A stretch of DNA of 64,000 bases from Pseudooceanicola sp. HF7 (lineage in GTDB: Bacteria; Pseudomonadota; Alphaproteobacteria; Rhodobacterales; Rhodobacteraceae): NCBI RefSeq assembly GCF_011806405.1, contig NZ_JAATOW010000007.1, forward strand, positions 62,001 through 126,000. The letters are read 5' to 3'. Positions 22,293-30,888 of the stretch are shown piece after piece. Position 1 is the stretch's first letter. Every line of letters begins with the position of its first letter. Made by a program: the position numbers and the translations under genes. Below the pieces are notes generated by a model. The model was not told the origin of the DNA. It searched no databases and was given only the letters and a program-made list of their open reading frames with translations.

Positions 22293-22868
22293 CTATTCGG
22301 AGAATTTCTCAAGCCCTTCGCGCAGCTCCGCGATGGTGGAGGCCAGGCGCGTCTCTGCCTTGGAGAAACTCTCGTCCGACCAGCTGGAGAAACGATCGAG
22401 CAGCGGCAGGAAGGTCTCGATCTCTTCGGTGGTCCAGCCGTTCAGGTAATCGCCCAGCACCAGGAACTTGATGGTGCGCACGGCATTGACGGTGGCGCGC
22501 CCCTTGGGCGTAAGCTCCACGATGGTGCGCCGCGCGTCCTTCTGACTGACACCACGGGCCAGCAGCCCCTGGCCGATCATTTCGGACACGATGCGGGAGG
22601 CCCGCGAGGGATCGATCCCCAAGCGGGCGGCGATGGTCGAGACCATCGTCTCTCCCTTGTCCTTGCCGAACTCGTTGGACGGCGCCCAGGTGGCGATAAG
22701 CACATCCAGTTTCGGCAGGTCGATCTCCAGCCCCAGCTGGGTCAGCGCCATCTGTCCCAGCTCACGCTTGTCGCGCCGCCGCCGCCAGTCCTGGAGGATG
22801 GCGTCGATCGCCAGCGCCCTGTCGGTCACGTCCGAGGGGATACCCGCATGTTCAAGGAATTCCGCCAT
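22293..22868 (-). CDS. MarR family transcriptional regulator
   Basis: A 191-residue winged-helix regulator. The DNA-binding core is LGIDPSRASRIVSEMIGQGLL followed by the wing ARRTIVELTPKGRA. A long C-terminal helical region (FSSWSDESFSKAETRLAST) would form the dimer interface. It diverges from a DHA2 drug carrier, the usual pairing for a MarR repressor of an efflux pump. The ATG at 22868 has no nearby Shine-Dalgarno sequence. The perfect AGGAGGA at 22903-22897 instead serves a 14-codon TTG-started ORF overlapping the marR start, or an in-frame ATC codon at 22889, so the true start is uncertain. Confidence 0.9.
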   Translation of the reverse strand: MAEFLEHAGIPSDVTDRALAIDAILQDWRRRRDKRELGQMALTQLGLEIDLPKLDVLIATWAPSNEFGKDKGETMVSTIAARLGIDPSRASRIVSEMIGQGLLARGVSQKDARRTIVELTPKGRATVNAVRTIKFLVLGDYLNGWTTEEIETFLPLLDRFSSWSDESFSKAETRLASTIAELREGLEKFSE

Positions 22869-22911
22869 GTCTTCGTCGCGCGTCCCGATGTCTCAATCCT
22901 CCTACATGTCC

Positions 22912-22968
22912 GGTAGCTTGTACCAGAAAAAGCGTGCCATTGACATGCAATTGTGATGGGCACATATT
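22912..22968 (+). promoter_or_regulatory. Promoter of the DHA2 carrier with possible MarR operators
   Basis: TTGACA (22940-22945), a 17-base spacer and CATATT (22963-22968) form a near-consensus sigma-70 promoter. The spacer holds the palindrome CAATTG, and a GGTA-N5-TACC inverted repeat lies just upstream at 22912-22924. Either could bind the divergent MarR protein. The promoter rules out the in-frame GTG at 22934 as start of the carrier. Confidence 0.6.
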
Positions 22969-23053
22969 TGTCGCAACCCAAAGTATCAAGCCTGAGCATC
23001 CGATTCCAACGTGGCATGCAAGAAAGGCGATCAATTCCGAGAGACTGTTGCCG

Positions 23054-24595
23054 ATGACTTCCACTGAACCGGCCTCTGCCGAGCGAAGGGGCACCGGGCG
23101 CAAAACGCCTGATCTGAACAACCCGCGCGTGCTGATCCTGACCGTTGCGCTGACGCTTTTCCTGGCCTCGACCGGGCAGAGCATCGTCTCGACCGCGCTG
23201 CCTGAGATCGTGAGCGATCTTGGTGGCTTGTCCTATATCGCCTGGGTGGTGACCGCCTATCTGCTGGCCTCGACCGTCGGGGCGCCCATCGCGGGCAAGC
23301 TTGGCGACATGTACGGGCGCAAGATCGTCCTGCAAAGCGCCATCGGCGTCTTCCTGGTGGGCGGCTGGATCGCGGGCATGGCCTGGAACATGCCGATGCT
23401 GATCTTGGGACGGGTCGTGCAGGGGGCCGGGGGCGGCGCGCTCATCGTGGTGTCCATGGCCGTGGTCGCGGATATCCTGCCGCCGCGGGAGCGCGCGAAG
23501 TGGCAGGGGGCCTTTTCTGCCGTCTTCGGTGTCTCCACCGTGATCGGCCCGTTGGTGGGCGGCTTCCTAGTGCAGACGGTCGGATGGCACTGGATCTTTT
23601 TCGTCAACATTCCCTTCGGCATCGCGGCCTTTGCCGTGTTGACGCGGAACCTTCCGGCCCATTCCGGGCAGCAGAAGCACACGCTTGATTACGCCGGCGC
23701 GGTTTGCCTGATGTCCTTCCTGAGCGCCCTGGTGCTGCTGGCCAACCTTGGCGGGACGATCCTGCCCTGGACCTCCCTTCCCTTGCTGCTTCTGATCGCG
23801 CTGGTCATCGCGGCGCTGTGTCTTTTCCTCTTTGTGGAATCCCGCGCGGCAGAGCCCGTCATCCCCCTGTCGCTCTTCAGCGTGCGCAACTACCAGGTGG
23901 CCAATGGCGTCAACCTTCTGGTGGGCATGGTGATGTTCGGCACGCTGTCTTTCGTGCCGATGTTCCTGCAGGTCGTCAAAGGCATGACGCCGGCGGACAG
24001 CGGCGTCTGCCTGATCGCGATGATGGCGGGGATCATGACGGCCTCCGTGCTGTCCGGGCGCTTCATGAACCACACGGGACGTTACCGGATCCTGCCCACA
24101 CTGGCGACCGCCGTCCTGTGCGTGTCGATGCTGGTGCTGTCCCGCATCGGGGTGCAGACGCCGATCTGGACCATCGCGCTGATCCTCTACTTCATGGGGC
24201 TCGGGATCGGGCCGAACCTGGCGGTCGGGGTCGTGGCGATCCAGACCTCCATTCCAAGGGAGCACCTTGGCGTCGGCACGGCCTCGGCCAACATGTTCCG
24301 CCTGACGGGCGGGGCCGTGGGGACCTCCATCTTTGGGGCGATCTTCAACCACGGCATGATCACCCATGTCTCTCCGCTTCTGCCCGGGCTTGAGGACGTC
24401 AGCAGCATCACCACCTCTTACCTTGCAGAGCTTGAGGTGGGCGTGAGGGCGCATGTGATCGAAGGGTTCTCCAACGCGATCACGCCGATGTTCCTGCTGG
24501 GGGCCTGTTTCGCGGCCCTGGCCTGCCTTGTTTCCCTGCGTCTTGTGGAACTGCCGCTGTCCGGCGCGCCGGGCCGGCAGGCCCCGGCAGAGTAG
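23054..24595 (+). CDS. DHA2-family drug:H+ antiporter (MFS, 14 TM)
   Basis: A 513-residue inner-membrane carrier of the DHA2/EmrB group. The start at 23054 (MTSTEPASAERRGTG) is chosen because the consensus promoter lies between it and the farther GTG. Motif D1 (ALPEIVSDLGG), motif A (GKLGDMYGRKIVLQ) and antiporter motif C (GPLVGGFLVQTVGW) are all present. About 14 hydrophobic segments fit the DHA2 topology. The divergent MarR gene suggests induction by a small toxic ligand. The substrate range cannot be read from sequence. Confidence 0.92.
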   Translation: MTSTEPASAERRGTGRKTPDLNNPRVLILTVALTLFLASTGQSIVSTALPEIVSDLGGLSYIAWVVTAYLLASTVGAPIAGKLGDMYGRKIVLQSAIGVFLVGGWIAGMAWNMPMLILGRVVQGAGGGALIVVSMAVVADILPPRERAKWQGAFSAVFGVSTVIGPLVGGFLVQTVGWHWIFFVNIPFGIAAFAVLTRNLPAHSGQQKHTLDYAGAVCLMSFLSALVLLANLGGTILPWTSLPLLLLIALVIAALCLFLFVESRAAEPVIPLSLFSVRNYQVANGVNLLVGMVMFGTLSFVPMFLQVVKGMTPADSGVCLIAMMAGIMTASVLSGRFMNHTGRYRILPTLATAVLCVSMLVLSRIGVQTPIWTIALILYFMGLGIGPNLAVGVVAIQTSIPREHLGVGTASANMFRLTGGAVGTSIFGAIFNHGMITHVSPLLPGLEDVSSITTSYLAELEVGVRAHVIEGFSNAITPMFLLGACFAALACLVSLRLVELPLSGAPGRQAPAE

Positions 24596-24685: not shown

Positions 24686-25309
24686 TCAAACGATGGTGGC
24701 CTCGGTGGCTGCGCGCATCTCGTCCTCTGAGACGCCATCGGCCAGCTCGACGATCGACAGGCCGCCTTCGACCACGTCCAGCACGCCAAGGTTGGTGATG
24801 ATCCGGTCCACGACACCTGCGCCGGTCAGCGGCAGGGTGCAGGCGTTCAGCACCTTGCTTTCACCATGCTTGTTCTGGTGATCCATCACCACGATGACAC
24901 GGCCAACACCCGCCACCAGGTCCATCGCACCGCCCATGCCCTTGACCAGCTTGCCCGGGATCATCCAGTTCGCCAGGTCGCCGTTCCCGGCCACTTCCAT
25001 CGCGCCAAGCACGGCCGCGGCAATCTTGCCGCCGCGGATCATGCCGAAGGAGGTGGCGCTGTCGAAATAGGCGGTCTTGGGCAGTTCGGTGATGGTCTGC
25101 TTGCCGGCGTTGATCAGGTCCGGATCTTCCTCGCCCTCGATGGGGAAGGGGCCCATGCCCAACATGCCGTTCTCGGACTGCAGGGTGATATCCTTGTCAC
25201 CGACATAGTTGGCCACCAGCGTCGGGATGCCGATGCCGAGGTTCACGTACATCCCGTCTTCCAGTTCCTCGGCGGCACGCGCGGCCATCTGATTTCTGTC
25301 CCAAGGCAT
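24686..25309 (-). CDS. scoB: 3-oxoacid CoA-transferase, subunit B
   Basis: The beta subunit of a succinyl-CoA:acetoacetate-type CoA-transferase, which moves CoA between succinyl-CoA and acetoacetate (ketone-body and polyhydroxybutyrate turnover). The 207-residue protein has [16 protein letters not shown] and [12 protein letters not shown]; the Glu of SENG is the catalytic nucleophile that forms the acyl-CoA thioester intermediate. A good AGGAGGA site precedes the ATG. It is the third gene of an operon in which a LOV histidine kinase separates it from scoA by 24 bases; the family normally has scoA directly followed by scoB. Confidence 0.95.
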
Positions 25310-25333
25310 GGGGGGTCTCCTCCTGTTTTTACA

Positions 25334-26368
25334 TCAACCCTGCAAGGCAAGGTCGGGCAGATCCAGCGTGACCACCGTTCCGGTGGAGCCGGTATTTACA
25401 ACGAGTTTGCCGGAAAGCTGCGTGATCAGACCGTTGATCACGCTGCCGCCGACGCTGGTCTTGTCGGGCCAGCTGACGCCTTCAGGCATGCCGACACCGT
25501 CGTCCGAAACAGTGACCCGCAGGGCCTGCCCGGAGAGCCGTTGCAGGCGCAGTTCCATCAGCCCGGTCTCACGCCCCTCGAACGCATGCTGTAATGCGTT
25601 GGTCATGACTTCCGAAACGACCAGGCCAAGGTTGATGGCCTCATCCGTGGTGACCTCTGCCTCGTCGACCAGCACGTTCACGCGGATGCCGGCCCGGCCA
25701 TCCAGCGCCTGCGTCGCCGCCGACAGCCGGGACAGGTAGGCGCCCAGGGACACGGTATCCATGTTGCGCCGCCGCTCCGGGTTGGACAGCTCCTGGTAAA
25801 GCACCTGAAGGCTCTCCACGCGGCGCGACAGCAGCTCGAACTGGTCGCGGGCATCGCCGGCCGCACGTCCATGGAGGCGAATCAGCGACACGATCATCGA
25901 CAGGTGGTTCTTGACCCGATGCTGCACTTCGCGCATGGCGCTGCGCACGGCATTGGGCGACATGAGGTCTTCGACTTCCGACAGAGGCTTCTGGATGCCC
26001 AGGAAGTACCGCAGGGTGCCGTCTGCCGCGAAGATCGGCGTGAGCATCAGACGGTTCATGAAGGGCGTCCCGTCGGCACGGTAGTTCTGGATGTCGACCG
26101 TCACGTCGACCCGGGAGGCCACGGCCTCACGGATGCGCTTGATATCGTCCGGGTCGGTATCCTTGCCTTGCAGGAAACGGCAGTTCCGGCCAACCGCCAT
26201 TGGGGCGGTGTAGCCGGATACCAGTTCGAAGGCACGATTGACGTAGACGATCGGGCAATCCGGCAGAGCGGGGTCGCATAGCACCATGGCGATATTCGAA
26301 CCGCTGAGCGCCTCGAAAGCCTGTGCATGAGAGATAGGTGGCGGGCTCGGCCTGTGTTCCGTGTCCAT
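25334..26368 (-). CDS. LOV-domain blue-light sensor histidine kinase (HisKA_2 type)
   Basis: A 344-residue soluble sensor kinase. Residues about 15-128 form a LOV (PAS) domain: the photoactive Cys63 lies in GRNCRFLQG, the flavin-contacting Asn95 in QNYRADG, Asn105 in PFMNRL and Gln126 in FLGIQ. All are as in functional FMN-binding LOV photoreceptors. A J-alpha-like linker leads to a HisKA_2 dimerisation helix with phospho-acceptor His150 (EVQHRVKNHLSMIVSLIRLHG). The HATPase domain follows (N-box SEVMTNALQHAF; SDDGVGMPEGV). No transmembrane segment and no response regulator are nearby. It sits between scoA and scoB with gaps of 31 and 24 bases, which points to co-transcription. Confidence 0.92.
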   Translation of the reverse strand: MDTEHRPSPPPISHAQAFEALSGSNIAMVLCDPALPDCPIVYVNRAFELVSGYTAPMAVGRNCRFLQGKDTDPDDIKRIREAVASRVDVTVDIQNYRADGTPFMNRLMLTPIFAADGTLRYFLGIQKPLSEVEDLMSPNAVRSAMREVQHRVKNHLSMIVSLIRLHGRAAGDARDQFELLSRRVESLQVLYQELSNPERRRNMDTVSLGAYLSRLSAATQALDGRAGIRVNVLVDEAEVTTDEAINLGLVVSEVMTNALQHAFEGRETGLMELRLQRLSGQALRVTVSDDGVGMPEGVSWPDKTSVGGSVINGLITQLSGKLVVNTGSTGTVVTLDLPDLALQG

Positions 26369-26399
26369 GTCGGTCGTTCCTAAGCTTCCTGAAACTCTG

Positions 26400-27098
26400 T
26401 CAGGCCGCCGGGCGCGTGGTGCGCTGCTCGATCCGTTTCTCGTGTTCCCCCTGGATGATGCGATGTACGTACACCCCGGGAAGATGGATGTGATCGGGAT
26501 CGAGGCTACCGGTCGGCACGATCTCTTCTACCTCGACAACGCAGATCTTGCCACACATCGCCGCAGGAGGGTTAAAGTTACGTGCGGTTTTGCGGAAGAC
26601 AAGGTTGCCCGTGTCGTCAGCCTTCCACGCCTTGACGATGGAAAGGTCGGCAAAGATGCCCCGTTCCATGATGTAGGTCTCGCCGTCGAAGTCCTTGTGC
26701 TCCTTGCCCTCGGCGATCACCGTGCCCACACCGGTCTTGGTGTAGAAGCCCGGGATGCCCGCGCCGCCGGCCCGCATCCGCTCGGCCAGGGTGCCCTGGG
26801 GATTGAACTCAAGCTCCAGCTCGCCCGACAGGTACTGGCGCATGAACTCCGCGTTCTCGCCCACGTAGGAAGAGATCATCTTCTTCACTTGCCGGGTCTG
26901 AAGCAGGATGCCGATTCCGAAATCATCGACGCCCGCGTTGTTGGATGCGAAGGTCAGATCCTTGGTTCCGGCCTCCTTGATCGCCTGCAACAAGAGCTCA
27001 GGAATGCCGCAAAGACCGAAGCCGCCAGCGGCAATCTCCATGCCGTCGAACAACAGCCCGTCGAGCGCCTCGGCGGCCGAGCCGTATACTTTCTTCAT
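26400..27098 (-). CDS. scoA: 3-oxoacid CoA-transferase, subunit A
   Basis: The alpha subunit of the CoA-transferase, 232 residues. The glycine-rich CoA-binding signature AAGGFGLCGIPELLLQAI lies near residue 23, then ASNNAGVDDFGIG and GAGIPGFYTKTGVGT. It initiates the operon scoA - LOV kinase - scoB. Its ATG has a strong GAGGAGG site. A candidate promoter lies about 30-58 bases upstream. The substrate is probably acetoacetate, but related subunits act on other short acyl-CoAs. Confidence 0.95.
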   Translation of the reverse strand: MKKVYGSAAEALDGLLFDGMEIAAGGFGLCGIPELLLQAIKEAGTKDLTFASNNAGVDDFGIGILLQTRQVKKMISSYVGENAEFMRQYLSGELELEFNPQGTLAERMRAGGAGIPGFYTKTGVGTVIAEGKEHKDFDGETYIMERGIFADLSIVKAWKADDTGNLVFRKTARNFNPPAAMCGKICVVEVEEIVPTGSLDPDHIHLPGVYVHRIIQGEHEKRIEQRTTRPAA

Positions 27099-27127
27099 CT
27101 GGATCCTCCTCAGAATTTATTCCCCCT

Positions 27128-27156
27128 GTCATGACGCCGCAGCGCAGCGGTGTCAA
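27128..27156 (-). promoter_or_regulatory. Candidate promoter of the scoA-kinase-scoB operon
   Basis: On the minus strand a perfect -35 (TTGACA, 27156-27151), a 17-base spacer and CATGAC (27133-27128; three of six consensus positions) precede the scoA ATG by about 30 bases. The -10 is weak, so an activator may be needed. Confidence 0.35.
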
Positions 27157-27221
27157 ATTGTGGAAAATACGTAATATGCCCTGCCAGAGGGGCACTGAGG
27201 GCAATTTCGGGGCTGTTTGGG

Positions 27222-27806
27222 TCAGATGATCCGCACCTGGGTGCCGATGGGCGTGACGGCAAAGAGTTCTTCAATGGCGAAGTTGTAGAGCCCGATGCAG
27301 CCGTCGGAACTGCGCCGCCCGATCTTGCGCGTGTCATGGGTGCCGTGGATCAGGTAGGCGGGCCAGGACAGGTACATCGCGTGGGTTCCAAGCGGGTTGT
27401 CGGGGCCCGGCGGCATGTAATGCAGCTCCGGATTGCGCTCGACCATGGAGGCGGTGGGGGTCCAGTCCGGGCCGACCTTCTTGCGCACGATCTTGGTATA
27501 GCCGCGCTTTGTCAGCTCGTCGGATGCGGGAACGGAGGTGGGATAGACGCGGTAGTCCCCCTCTGCGTTCCAGTAATGCAGCGCGCGGGACGAGGTATCG
27601 GCGACGATACTGGCCACGCCCAGGCTGTCGAAGTGGTCCTGCCAGCTCTGGCTGGAGAAGGAAGAGATGTTGTGACGCGTCGCGGGGGCCGCCAGGCGGG
27701 CCGGCCGTTCGGCCATGGGCACCTGGGCCTCCTGCGCGCGCAGGGCTGTGGGCAGAAGAAGGGCCGAGGCCCCGGCGGTGATCAGGTTCCGTCGCGTGAT
27801 GGTCAT
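27222..27806 (-). CDS. L,D-transpeptidase (YkuD), probably Tat-exported
   Basis: A periplasmic transpeptidase that makes L,D cross-links in peptidoglycan or anchors proteins to it. The ATG at 27806 is chosen for its AAAAGGAG site, giving 194 residues. The N-terminus MTITRRNLITAGASALLLPT contains a twin-arginine motif (TRRNLI) before a hydrophobic stretch, consistent with Tat export. The catalytic YkuD motif is IHGTHDTRKIGRRSSDGCIG, with His and Cys in the expected HGT...SxGCIGL arrangement. It is a single gene between scoA and topA. Confidence 0.92.
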   Translation of the reverse strand: MTITRRNLITAGASALLLPTALRAQEAQVPMAERPARLAAPATRHNISSFSSQSWQDHFDSLGVASIVADTSSRALHYWNAEGDYRVYPTSVPASDELTKRGYTKIVRKKVGPDWTPTASMVERNPELHYMPPGPDNPLGTHAMYLSWPAYLIHGTHDTRKIGRRSSDGCIGLYNFAIEELFAVTPIGTQVRII

Positions 27807-27960
27807 GCTCTGCTCCTTTTTTCGGCAGCGTCTCTCTGGCGCTCGCGCGGAGACTGCTCCAAGGCGGGCCCTGCGTCCATCGCCACGCCTGTAAAGACGG
27901 GTATGGTCATCTATATGCCACCACGCGAATGTGACGCCCGGAGAGCACCGCGTGAGCACG

Positions 27961-28008: not shown

Positions 28009-30711
28009 TCAGCCGGTGGTTTCATCCGACGTGTCTTCATCGGACTTGCTGGCCGCGGATTTCTTCGCCCCGGTCTTGGCGGCGGTCTTCTTGGCCGGAG
28101 CCTTCTTTGCCGGGGCTTTCTTCGCCGCTGTTTTCTTGGCCGGTGCCTTCTTCGCGGCGGCCTTCTTGGGCGCCGCTTTCCGCGTGGTCTTCTTGCCGGA
28201 CTTGGCGGCGCGTTCCTCGATCAGGGCGACGGCCTGTTCCATGGTCAGATCACCGGGCTCCACCTCCTTGGGGATGGTGGCGTTGATCTTTTCCCATTTC
28301 ACGTAGGGCCCGTATTTCCCGTCGTAGATCGCGATCGGCCCACCGCTGTCGGGGTGTTCGCCCATCTCGCGGATCGGGGTCGCAGCAGCGCCCCGTCCCT
28401 TGCGGGAGGCAACCTTTTCCGCCAGCAGCTGGACCGCGCGGTTCATGCCAACGGTCCAGACGTCCTCGATCCCCTCGAGGTTGGCATTGGTGCCACCCCG
28501 GTCGGACGTCGTGTCGGCGTGTTTCAGGTAGGGCCCGTAACGCCCGATATTGGCCCAGACATTCACCCCGTCTTCCGGGTGCGTGCCCAGCAGGCGCGGC
28601 AGTTCCAGCAGCTTCACGCCCTGTTCCAGCGTCAGCTCTTCGGGCTGCCACTCCTTGGGTACCGACTGGCGGGGCGGCTTCTTGACCTCTTCAGTCACGG
28701 GACCGCGCTGTACATAGGGGCCGAAGCGGCCCTTGAAGATGCGGATCTCATCGCCCTGGTCTTCGCCCAGCAGCTTGCCCTCGGGCGGGATCGCGCTGGC
28801 CTCTGCCTCTGCATCGGGGGGACCGAAGGGGCGGGTGTAGCGGCATTCGGGGTAGTTCGAGCAGCCGATGAAGGCGCCGCCCGACCGCGCGGTGCGCATC
28901 GACAGGCGACCCTTGCCGCAGTTCGGGCACAGGCGCGGGTCGCCACCGTCCGGCAGCGGGGGGAACAGGTGCGGTTCCAGGACCTCGTTGATCTTCTCCA
29001 GCACATCGGTGATGCGCAGTTCCGAGGTCTCCTCGATCGCGGCAGAGAAATCGCGCCAGAAGCGCCGCAGCACTTCCTTGTAATCGCGTTCACCGGCGGA
29101 AACGTCGTCCAGTTCTTCTTCCAAGTCGGCGGTGAAGTCGTATTCGACGTACTTCTTGAAGTAGTTCGACAGGAAGGCAATCACCAGCCGCCCCTTGTCT
29201 TCGGGGATCAGGCGGTTCTTGTCCTTGATGACATAGCCGCGGTCCTGGATCGTCGTGACGATGGAGGCATAGGTCGAGGGGCGGCCGATGCCCAGCTCTT
29301 CCATGCGCTTGACCAGCGTCGCCTCTGTGTAGCGTGGCGGGGGCTGGGTGAAGTGCTGCTCCGGCGTGACCTTGCGCTTCTCTGCGCTTTCGCCCTGGCT
29401 GACCTGGGGCAGGCGCTTGTCATCGTCATCGGTGACCGCGTCATCGCGGCCTTCCTCGTAGACCCGCAGGAAGCCGTCGAACAGGACCACCTGGCCGGTG
29501 GCGCGCAGTTCCACCTGGCCATCGGAGCTGCCGACATCCACCGTGGTCCGCTCAAGGCGCGCGCCTTCCATCTGGCAGGCCAGCGTGCGCTTCCAGATCA
29601 GGTCATAAAGCTTGCGCTGGTCCGCGTCCTGGATCTTCAGCGCGGCGGCGTCCTTGGTCATGTCCGTCGGGCGGATACATTCGTGCGCTTCCTGGGCGTT
29701 CTTGGCCTTGTTCTTGTAGACTCGCGGGCTGCCGGGCACGTATTCCGCGCCGTAGCGGTCCTTGATCGCCTCGCGTGCGGCCGTCACGGCCTCGGGGGCC
29801 ATGTCGATACCATCGGTCCGCATGTAGGTAATGTAGCCTGCCTCGTAGAGCCGCTGCGCGGTGCTCATGGTCTGACGGGCCCCCATGGAGAACTTGCGGC
29901 TGGCTTCCTGCTGCAGGGTCGAGGTCATGAAGGGCGGGCTGGGATTGCGGGAGGCAGGCTTTGCCTCGACCGATTTGACGCTCAGGTCACGGCTGTTGAT
30001 CGCCTGCACCGCAAGGCTGGCGGTGGTTTCGTTGTCCAGGTCGAAGCGGTCCAGCTTCTTGCCGCCGAAGACGGTCAGGCGGGCTTCATATTCCTGGCCG
30101 CGCGGCGTGGCCAGGATCGCCTTGACGGACCAGTATTCCCGGGCCTTGAAGGCCTCGATCTCCATCTCGCGCTCGACGATCAGGCGCAGGCAGACCGATT
30201 GCACGCGGCCGGCGGATTTCGCGCCGGGCAGCTTGCGCCAGAGCACCGGCGACAGGTTGAAGCCGACCAGGTAGTCAAGCGCGCGGCGGGCCAGGTAGGC
30301 CTCGACCAGCGGGGCGTCGACCTGGCGGGGGTTCTGCATGGCTTCTGTGACGGCGGCCTTGGTGATCGCGTTGAAGACAACCCGGCTGACCGGCGTGTCC
30401 TTCTTGATCGCCTTGCGCTTGCGCAGCGCCTCTTCAAGGTGCCAGGAAATCGCCTCCCCCTCGCGGTCGGGGTCAGTTGCGAGGATCAGCGCATTGTCGT
30501 CCTTCAGCGCATCGGCGATGGCCTTCACGTGTTTGCGAGAGTCGCTCGCGATCTCCCAGAGCATCTCGAAATCATGCTCTGTATCGACGGAACCATCCTT
30601 GGGCGGCAGGTCCCGAACGTGCCCGTAAGAGGCCAGGACGGTGTAGTCAGAGCCCAGATACTTGTTGATTGTCTTGGCCTTGGCAGGAGATTCAACAACA
30701 ACGACGGGCAT
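28009..30711 (-). CDS. topA: DNA topoisomerase I
   Basis: Type IA topoisomerase that relaxes negative supercoils, about 900 residues. The start at ATG 30711 (MPVVVVESPAKAKTINKYLG) has AAAGGA eight bases upstream; an ATG 19 codons earlier is less likely. The Toprim domain includes LILATDPDREGEAISWHL, and the catalytic Tyr lies in AGYITYMRTDGIDM. One clear C-terminal zinc ribbon is present (LCPNCGKGRLSMR, then CSNYPECRYT), followed by repeated GRYGPYLK/GKYGPYVKW modules. The last ~55 residues are a histone-H1-like Lys/Ala repeat (APKKAAAKKAPAKK type) ending in an acidic tip. Its expected role is DNA affinity. Confidence 0.97.
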   Translation of the reverse strand: MPVVVVESPAKAKTINKYLGSDYTVLASYGHVRDLPPKDGSVDTEHDFEMLWEIASDSRKHVKAIADALKDDNALILATDPDREGEAISWHLEEALRKRKAIKKDTPVSRVVFNAITKAAVTEAMQNPRQVDAPLVEAYLARRALDYLVGFNLSPVLWRKLPGAKSAGRVQSVCLRLIVEREMEIEAFKAREYWSVKAILATPRGQEYEARLTVFGGKKLDRFDLDNETTASLAVQAINSRDLSVKSVEAKPASRNPSPPFMTSTLQQEASRKFSMGARQTMSTAQRLYEAGYITYMRTDGIDMAPEAVTAAREAIKDRYGAEYVPGSPRVYKNKAKNAQEAHECIRPTDMTKDAAALKIQDADQRKLYDLIWKRTLACQMEGARLERTTVDVGSSDGQVELRATGQVVLFDGFLRVYEEGRDDAVTDDDDKRLPQVSQGESAEKRKVTPEQHFTQPPPRYTEATLVKRMEELGIGRPSTYASIVTTIQDRGYVIKDKNRLIPEDKGRLVIAFLSNYFKKYVEYDFTADLEEELDDVSAGERDYKEVLRRFWRDFSAAIEETSELRITDVLEKINEVLEPHLFPPLPDGGDPRLCPNCGKGRLSMRTARSGGAFIGCSNYPECRYTRPFGPPDAEAEASAIPPEGKLLGEDQGDEIRIFKGRFGPYVQRGPVTEEVKKPPRQSVPKEWQPEELTLEQGVKLLELPRLLGTHPEDGVNVWANIGRYGPYLKHADTTSDRGGTNANLEGIEDVWTVGMNRAVQLLAEKVASRKGRGAAATPIREMGEHPDSGGPIAIYDGKYGPYVKWEKINATIPKEVEPGDLTMEQAVALIEERAAKSGKKTTRKAAPKKAAAKKAPAKKTAAKKAPAKKAPAKKTAAKTGAKKSAASKSDEDTSDETTG

Positions 30712-30888
30712 CCGGGTTCCTTTCGCTTGGCGTCTCACGACTGAGTTCACGCCTTGGCGGCGGAACATGTGGGGTCGGGGACCCGGTTGTCAATGGAGCC
30801 ATTTTGCGGCGGGTGCAAGAGAGGTGAAGCGCTTGTGAGCTGTGGGAGGGCCCGGAAGAGCCTGTGAAAGTGGCAGGAATACGCGCGC

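Follow-up and report, generated by a model that had tools for sequence, protein, structure and literature searches.

What does the position of a photoreceptor gene between the two genes of a metabolic enzyme say about the function of the photoreceptor? The question is raised by a 64,000-nucleotide stretch of DNA from Pseudooceanicola sp. HF7 (contig NZ_JAATOW010000007.1, positions 62,001 to 126,000; here called the window), in which scoA and scoB, the genes for the two subunits of a 3-oxoacid CoA-transferase, are separated by a gene for a LOV blue-light sensor histidine kinase. Our analysis shows that the arrangement scoA-LOV-scoB is real, conserved and informative, and suggests that on present evidence it is an old inherited address and not a link between light and metabolism. 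We consider it reasonably probable that the kinase belongs to a photoreceptor lineage inherited at the topA-sco site, is transcribed from the sco promoter, is weakly translated, and has its output in trans, likely through PhyR. It adds a member to a known kind of kinase, of which a PhyR kinase and a PpsR antirepressor have already been published.

By its sequence the window protein is, as a preliminary description of the window had stated, a LOV histidine kinase with all its parts. It comprises a LOV domain (residues ~26–131), a HisKA_2 domain (~147–217) and an ATP-binding domain (~230–338). The Pfam models PAS_9, HisKA_2 and HATPase_c_2 all match above cut-off and cover residues 35–339 of 344. 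The alignment contains the flavin and photoactive residues Cys63, Asn95, Asn105 and Gln126, with NCRFLQ as the LOV motif. The phosphoacceptor His150 lies in an intact H-box (EVQHRVKN), and the ATP-binding motifs are intact as well (Glu253 and Asn257 of the N-box, DxGxG as DDGVG). The nearest solved structure is that of EL346 (PDB-entry 4r3a, 294.9 bits over residues 26–338). By sequence the gene encodes an EL346-type LOV-HWE/HisKA_2 blue-light histidine kinase, with predicted flavin binding and photocycle. The NCBIfam model BluLightHisKinLov (NF052306) matches residues 17–338 with an E-value of 4.4e-51; the score of 173.7 bits is far below the equivalog cut-off of 450 bits, and an assignment to this equivalog was rejected. 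The NCBIfam light-kinase models remained below cut-off.

The three genes are arranged head to tail on the minus strand, with gaps of 31 nucleotides between scoA and the kinase gene and 24 nucleotides between the kinase gene and scoB. Both scoA and scoB score above the curated NCBIfam cut-offs (TIGR02429 and TIGR02428), and together with the coordinates of the open reading frames these scores bear out the arrangement as first described.

Distribution and descent of the topA-sco site

We refer to the junction between scoA and scoB as the slot; L and G numbers are labels for loci and genomes of our sample. The sample comprised 394 genomes, about one per genus, and the family name (Rhodobacteraceae) was taken from the named records of relatives. 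At a match threshold of E 1e-50, a LOV kinase of this kind was found in 40 of the 394 genomes, at 43 loci, all of which were read. Twenty-seven loci have the order scoA-LOV-scoB, three have the LOV gene beside topA without scoAB, and 12 are located elsewhere. In the remaining one (L129/L049) scoA and the LOV gene are followed by a GSCFA-like gene pair and the contig ends before any scoB; it was counted as a slot in the trees described below. Across the sampled family, 27 genera show this tight, co-directional order. An order-wide search yielded 47 genomes with a match, all from the same family, and 7 of the 21 loci newly read among these matches were slots. The arrangement thus recurs in other genomes, and since its order is kept in many genera, it is more than chance. 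In the genus of the window the slot is present in 8 of 22 genomes. A scan of species genomes found slots in records named Oceanicola, Pseudooceanicola, Carideicomes, Mesobaculum, Rubellimicrobium, Kangsaoukella and Amaricoccus. For the LOV kinases of Erythrobacter, Aurantiacibacter, Parvularcula, Palleronia, Aurantimonas and others, sco was not found in the flanks examined.

The site is marked by an upstream open reading frame which we take to be topA. Where at least 3 kb of upstream sequence is available, 14 of 15 slot loci carry a homologue of this gene there (a single Rubellimicrobium contributes two of the 15); among the 42 slot loci with a shorter flank it was seen in 24. Some genomes are entered twice in these counts, e.g. 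as L042 and L278. It is also present at 31 of 38 scoA loci without a LOV gene. In G198, G331, G208, G549, G560, G546 and G452 the LOV gene is located directly downstream of topA, outside a slot. Seven rows of the protein tree have LOV beside topA after departure of scoAB, one of them with a scoA remnant. This remnant, 32 residues long (81% identity, E 2e-13; L301:1317-1412), lies between topA and a LOV gene lacking the phosphoacceptor histidine in G452, and a weaker one (E 0.009) precedes the LOV gene of G546. G198 carries a tight scoAB elsewhere in its genome, G208 carries scoA and scoB, with a GSCFA-like pair between them, ~107 kb from the LOV gene, and G331 gave no scoA match at 1e-80. On a plain reading of these sequences, scoAB would have left the site and the LOV gene would have stayed.

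The descent of the kinase was analyzed with trees of 88 and 107 proteins. Both are of a quick type with SH-like approximate likelihood-ratio (SH-aLRT) support only, and identical proteins were counted once. Neither includes ten PAS kinases that lack the LOV motif (L083-L090, L095, L102), and the larger one also omits three proteins with long branches (L082, L263 and L264, the last a His-less slot member). The 107-protein tree was built without the columns around the phosphoacceptor, and 106 of its rows were labelled by location; L299 has too little flank for a label. On this tree the label "slot or topA site" changes four times, compared with a mean of 35.6 for shuffled labels. The preliminary description had named random positions of the same kinase in relatives as a refutation. 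Within the lineage the positions are not random: the topA-sco site holds the majority of members and a few lie elsewhere, with L043, L294, L295 and L298 at neither the slot nor the topA site.

The contents of the scoA/scoB junction were surveyed in a sample of 120 genomes with 114 scoA matches, ten of which were unread (four of these being known LOV slots). At the 104 scoA loci read, scoB follows within 100 nucleotides in 83 cases, after 100–400 nucleotides in 10, after 400–1000 nucleotides in one and after more than 1 kb in seven; the LOV gene lies inside in two, and scoB is absent from the stretch in one. In other junctions lie a GSCFA gene together with a partner gene, a DUF1801 or YCII gene, or genes for small proteins without a Pfam match, as judged from one scanned representative of each kind. 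As a control we examined sucC-sucD (61 genomes matched, 30 loci fetched, 27 readable). The sucD start is within 100 nucleotides in five loci and further off in eight; in 14 it was not found within ~1.5 kb by a motif search, a number that may include misses. The two genes are non-adjacent in 22 of the 27 loci and 609 nucleotides apart in the genome of the window (L331). Interruption of the subunit pairs of CoA enzymes thus looks ordinary in Rhodobacteraceae, and because the junctions often hold unrelated genes, a position between the subunits is weak evidence of function.

A GSCFA-family gene and a second gene (~1.85–2.1 kb) lie between scoA and scoB in several genera (L233-L237, L185, L344); one protein was identified by Pfam and the rest by eye, and at L049 such a pair is present in addition to the LOV kinase gene. 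In L128 a carboxymuconolactone-decarboxylase-like gene accompanies the LOV gene. Proteins of ~78–97 residues inside scoA/scoB (L148, L161, L175, L203, L226, L249, L078) gave no Pfam match in the three that were scanned and appear by eye to form one or two families. A long open reading frame downstream of scoA in L221 and L232 (1060 residues in L232, between scoA and scoB) resembles a secreted glycoside hydrolase by eye.

Loss of the phosphoacceptor in one clade

Eighteen of the 88 proteins, and 27 of the 107 in the larger set, carry N, D, R, S, G, A or E at the position of His150. A single change accounts for all of these losses in both trees. Twenty-one of the 27 His-less proteins are in the slot, five at the topA site and one has too little flank, and all 55 proteins labelled "elsewhere" retain the histidine. 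All four flavin residues are retained in the 18 aligned His-less rows, and the H-box is eroded. The mean identity among these rows is 0.64 in the LOV domain, 0.46 in the DHp domain and 0.55 in the ATP domain, compared with 0.58, 0.55 and 0.47 among 21 His-bearing slot rows. HATPase models matched 16 of the 17 His-less members scanned, and HisKA_2 matched eight.

Between close pairs of both groups the nonsynonymous divergence (dN) is well under the synonymous divergence (dS) in every domain. Relative to the LOV domain, dN of the phosphoacceptor domain is 1.05 in His-less and 0.84 in His-bearing proteins, i.e. freer in the former, and dN of the ATP domain is 0.69 versus 1.2, i.e. tighter. These ratios derive from 149 and 123 non-independent pairs with dS near saturation, so that only relative dN per domain was used, and the His group contains non-slot proteins too. 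Judged by these patterns, the His-less members look like maintained photosensors without phosphotransfer. A His-less subgroup among EL346-like proteins has already been remarked on (PMC10359499, section 4).

Exceptions among the flavin residues were found as well. The kinase of G083 (L262, a non-slot locus) has Trp in place of the cysteine, Ser in place of N95 and Leu in place of Q126, and is probably not photoactive. Single deviations occur in L117 (N105 to Ser), in L253, L259 and L263 (Q126 to Leu) and in L311 (gap at position 126).

Expression, signalling output and alternative readings

In neither intergenic gap did a consensus scan list a terminator-like or promoter-like site on the minus strand. 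Directly upstream of scoA the same scan gave no sigma-70 pair, and a -10 element was not identified. Of 151 distinct scoA upstream regions, 129 contain the motif TTGAC within 150 nucleotides, compared with 9% of single-base shuffles, and it is found in regions with (38 of 44) and without (91 of 107) a LOV gene. In the window a TTGAC element lies at -58 from the scoA start; the preliminary description had proposed a shared upstream promoter candidate. Since the gaps are free of terminator- and promoter-like sites and TTGAC is conserved before scoA, the three genes would probably form one transcript under a general sco promoter, and it is plausible that the kinase level follows this promoter. 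Control of the sco operon by EcfG was considered as well, but an informal look by eye directly upstream of the window scoA did not reveal the EcfG consensus GGAAC-N16-17-[C/G]GTT. The sequences GACACCGC...GCGGCGTC (window 27099-27160) make up an imperfect inverted repeat, which overlaps the sco TTGACA; by eye its conservation in relatives is not obvious.

The Shine-Dalgarno sequence of the LOV gene is weaker than that of scoA in 31 of 37 slot loci and weaker than that of scoB in 30 of 37, in a comparison that retains a few misjudged starts (scoB of L005 and L007; LOV of L044, L128 and L138). Such a weak site fits few sensors being made from a strongly translated operon.

Two slot members are already CHARACTERISED: RT-HK of Rubellimicrobium thermophilum and LdaP of Dinoroseobacter shibae. 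The slot protein L275 (G420) has 349 residues, H152 and N256, which correspond to the number in the name RT349 and to the residues mutated in PMC10359499 and PMC12148442. G420 also encodes two PhyRs that match PDB-entries 9by5 and 9cb6 residue for residue over the native part, and for these reasons L275 is RT-HK. L139 (G056), which is flanked by scoA and scoB, has 338 residues, Cys61, Arg148 and the gene parts of both published Dshi_1135 cloning primers at its ends, and is therefore LdaP. Dshi_1135 is listed as a LOV kinase in PMC4335406, in the available part of which scoA is not mentioned. RT-HK is reported to phosphorylate RT-PhyR, more so in the dark, and to prefer PhyR at 30 s (PMC10359499, PMC12148442). 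LdaP, with Arg at the phosphoacceptor position, is reported to have a photocycle and no autophosphorylation (PMC10890935); it binds PpsR, and repression is relieved in the dark in a reporter strain (PMC10890935, sections 12 and 16). The main texts of PMC10359499, PMC12148442 and PMC10890935 contain no mention of scoA, acetoacet-, 3-oxoacid or topA. A full-text literature search on LOV kinases with CoA-transferases gave nothing relevant among the matches listed.

In the genome of the window, PhyR, a divergent NepR (51.1 bits, cut-off 25.7), an ECF-sigma-like gene and a second kinase, a 572-residue protein matching the kinase part of the LOV protein, form one cluster on a different contig, C12. 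This PhyR (L276:8772-9629) is 71% identical to the G420 protein matching 9by5. In the family sample, PhyR (E 1e-40) is present in 35 of the 40 LOV genomes and in 154 of the 354 others. It accompanies His-bearing LOV-family kinases in 23 of 23 genomes and is present in 12 of 17 genomes with only His-less ones (p 0.009). The five LOV genomes without PhyR, also at 1e-20 (G160, G169, G200, G284 and G396), are without NepR too and carry only His-less LOV proteins. Of the 22 LOV genomes examined in addition, only G576 lacks PhyR; the LOV protein in its slot is His-less. In G577 a His-bearing LOV paralogue, closest to the non-slot proteins L293 and L122, adjoins PhyR and NepR (L346:6237-8880), and the slot copy has Asn instead of His. 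By eye, a small secreted-looking gene lies in between at the paralogue locus.

We propose the following course of events. The lineage would have become established early in Rhodobacteraceae between the sco genes of the topA-scoAB locus, and the slot would mostly have been inherited in place, with many losses. Transcription of the LOV kinase gene would start at the sco promoter and its translation would be weak, giving few sensors per enzyme molecule, and the output of the kinase would act in trans, independently of the CoA-transferase. For the window kinase, which keeps its histidine, the most likely target would be PhyR of the general stress response, and signalling would probably be stronger in darkness than under blue light. 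In one clade the phosphoacceptor was lost a single time, and on the example of LdaP this clade may act by protein binding as a PpsR antirepressor. The photochemistry, PhyR phosphorylation, PpsR binding and dark activity invoked here were established by others on relatives and would apply by analogy.

A number of observations weigh against this proposal. PhyR, NepR and EcfG gave no matches in the 64-kb window; the earlier statement that it holds no cognate response regulator stands for these three, the only ones tested. The published locus tags of RT-HK and RT-PhyR are 35 numbers apart, and the genes are ~677 kb apart on one contig of G420, a mismatch that draft-assembly numbering may explain. 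The statistics of the PhyR association ignore the relatedness of the genomes. EL346 is a light-activated monomer (PMC10359499), and since the linker between LOV domain and phosphoacceptor has the same length in the window protein, the dark logic is uncertain. Of the 63 rows in the clade that unites the window protein with RT-HK and LdaP, 15 lie at other sites. On a tree of scoA and scoB combined, the LOV label is scattered (25 changes) and the His label changes 5–6 times; this tree is weakly resolved (19 of 141 branches starred), and one His-less clade is not rejected (approximately unbiased test, p 0.08). With such low resolution this tree does not confirm strict vertical descent, and some transfer between lineages may have occurred.

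A further idea, which we regard as doubtful, is that a dark-active lineage fixed at topA-sco changed its output in place, from PhyR kinases to PpsR antirepressors after the single loss of the histidine, and that the His-bearing members are bifunctional intermediates with both PhyR phosphorylation and PpsR binding. If so, the stress response and the photosynthesis genes would share one light switch.

It is rather unlikely that the window protein is an antirepressor like LdaP, in which binding of PpsR in the dark would free the photosynthesis genes and phosphotransfer would be secondary or lost in practice. LdaP is itself a slot gene between scoA and scoB, and its binding of PpsR and relief of repression in the dark point in this direction. 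The window protein, however, retains His150 and the whole H-box and is only 40% identical to LdaP. Furthermore, the LdaP pull-down (15 enriched proteins of 260 identified, PpsR included) contained seven PpsR peptides in white light, seven in blue light and one in the dark, where the bait was ~tenfold lower; the dark preference is based on the authors' western blot and reporter (PMC10890935).

The kinase might also act mainly on a regulator other than PhyR, e.g. a single-domain regulator elsewhere in the genome, which we consider unlikely. No regulator match was found beside the slot kinases: PhyR, NepR or EcfG lie near three of the 144 LOV loci scanned, none a slot (the G577 paralogue and, both partial, L076 and L082); L082, a Caulobacter LOV kinase locus, has an adjoining receiver-domain match. 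The preference of the slot kinase RT-HK for PhyR and the co-occurrence of His-bearing members with PhyR in all 23 genomes argue against such a target.

Very unlikely, finally, is the tie of light sensing to acetoacetate or polyhydroxybutyrate turnover, through the shared operon or a contact with the CoA-transferase, which the preliminary description favored and which we rejected as the best reading: the tight co-directional order in 27 genera speaks for it, but the LOV gene persists at topA without scoAB (in G331 without any scoA match at 1e-80), the clades differ in output chemistry yet keep the same address, ScoA and ScoB are not among the 15 enriched proteins reported in the available sections on the LdaP pull-down (PMC10890935), no scoA or scoB column comes near to separating LOV from non-LOV operons (best difference 0.41), and the junction accepts unrelated genes.

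The features of the locus are summarized in Table 1. The L,D-transpeptidase-like open reading frame is matched in near relatives and is without a match in L039, L040 and L042. Downstream of scoB (window 22293-24595), a MarR-like regulator gene is divergent from a major facilitator superfamily (MFS) efflux-type gene that ends convergent with scoB; the DHA2 model matches the latter with 222.8 bits, slightly below its cut-off of 230.2. An Rfam scan of the window gave no matches at gathering score.

Table 1. Features of the scoA-LOV-scoB locus (window positions)
Feature	Position	Strand	Basis
Presumed topA, upstream neighbour marking the ancestral site of the LOV gene	28009..30768	-	homologue upstream of slot loci (see text)
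L,D-transpeptidase-like open reading frame between topA and scoA	27222..27959	-	NCBIfam L,D-transpeptidase models, 63 bits, under cut-offs
Candidate -35 element TTGACA of the sco operon	27151..27156	-	~58 nucleotides upstream of the scoA start; sequence and conservation
Strong Shine-Dalgarno of scoA	27105..27111	-	duplex energy -11.2
scoA, 3-oxoacid CoA-transferase subunit A, 232 residues	26400..27098	-	TIGR02429 234.7 bits (cut-off 128.5); Pfam CoA_trans 250.2 bits
Weak Shine-Dalgarno AGGAA of the LOV kinase gene	26377..26381	-	duplex energy -4.2
LOV blue-light sensor histidine kinase, 344 residues	25334..26368	-	Pfam domains, motifs, EL346 match
Strong Shine-Dalgarno AGGAGG of scoB	25319..25324	-	duplex energy -10.3
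scoB, 3-oxoacid CoA-transferase subunit B, 207 residues	24686..25309	-	TIGR02428 313.5 bits (cut-off 243.55)

Comparison with characterized relatives

On the proposed descent, the published photoreceptors RT-HK and LdaP come from the same inherited site and are separated by a single loss of the phosphoacceptor. The lineage would thereby offer a natural series for the change from a histidine kinase to a phosphate-free regulator with the light sensor intact. For Rhodobacteraceae it also advises caution, as an operon neighbour is a poor guide to the function of a gene in a family in which unrelated genes often separate the subunit genes of CoA enzymes.

Of the three relatives compared here, RT-HK resembles the window protein in domain order, in the histidine and ATP motifs, in its place in the slot (L275) and in the presence of PhyR in the genome, at a sequence identity of 48–50%. 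It differs in the linker between the LOV domain and the phosphoacceptor, which is 24 residues long compared with 23 in the window protein, and in the two PhyR matches of its genome compared with one. The photochemistry and phosphotransfer of RT-HK have been measured; those of the window protein are predicted. LdaP shares the slot (L139), the LOV residues, the domain order and the 23-residue linker with the window protein, and is unlike it in having Arg at the phosphoacceptor position in place of His150 and in its lower identity (40%). EL346, the best solved relative, has a 23-residue linker as well. The LOV kinase genes in records of Erythrobacter and Aurantiacibacter, in contrast to that of the window, have neither sco nor topA in the flanks examined, mostly 5 kb.

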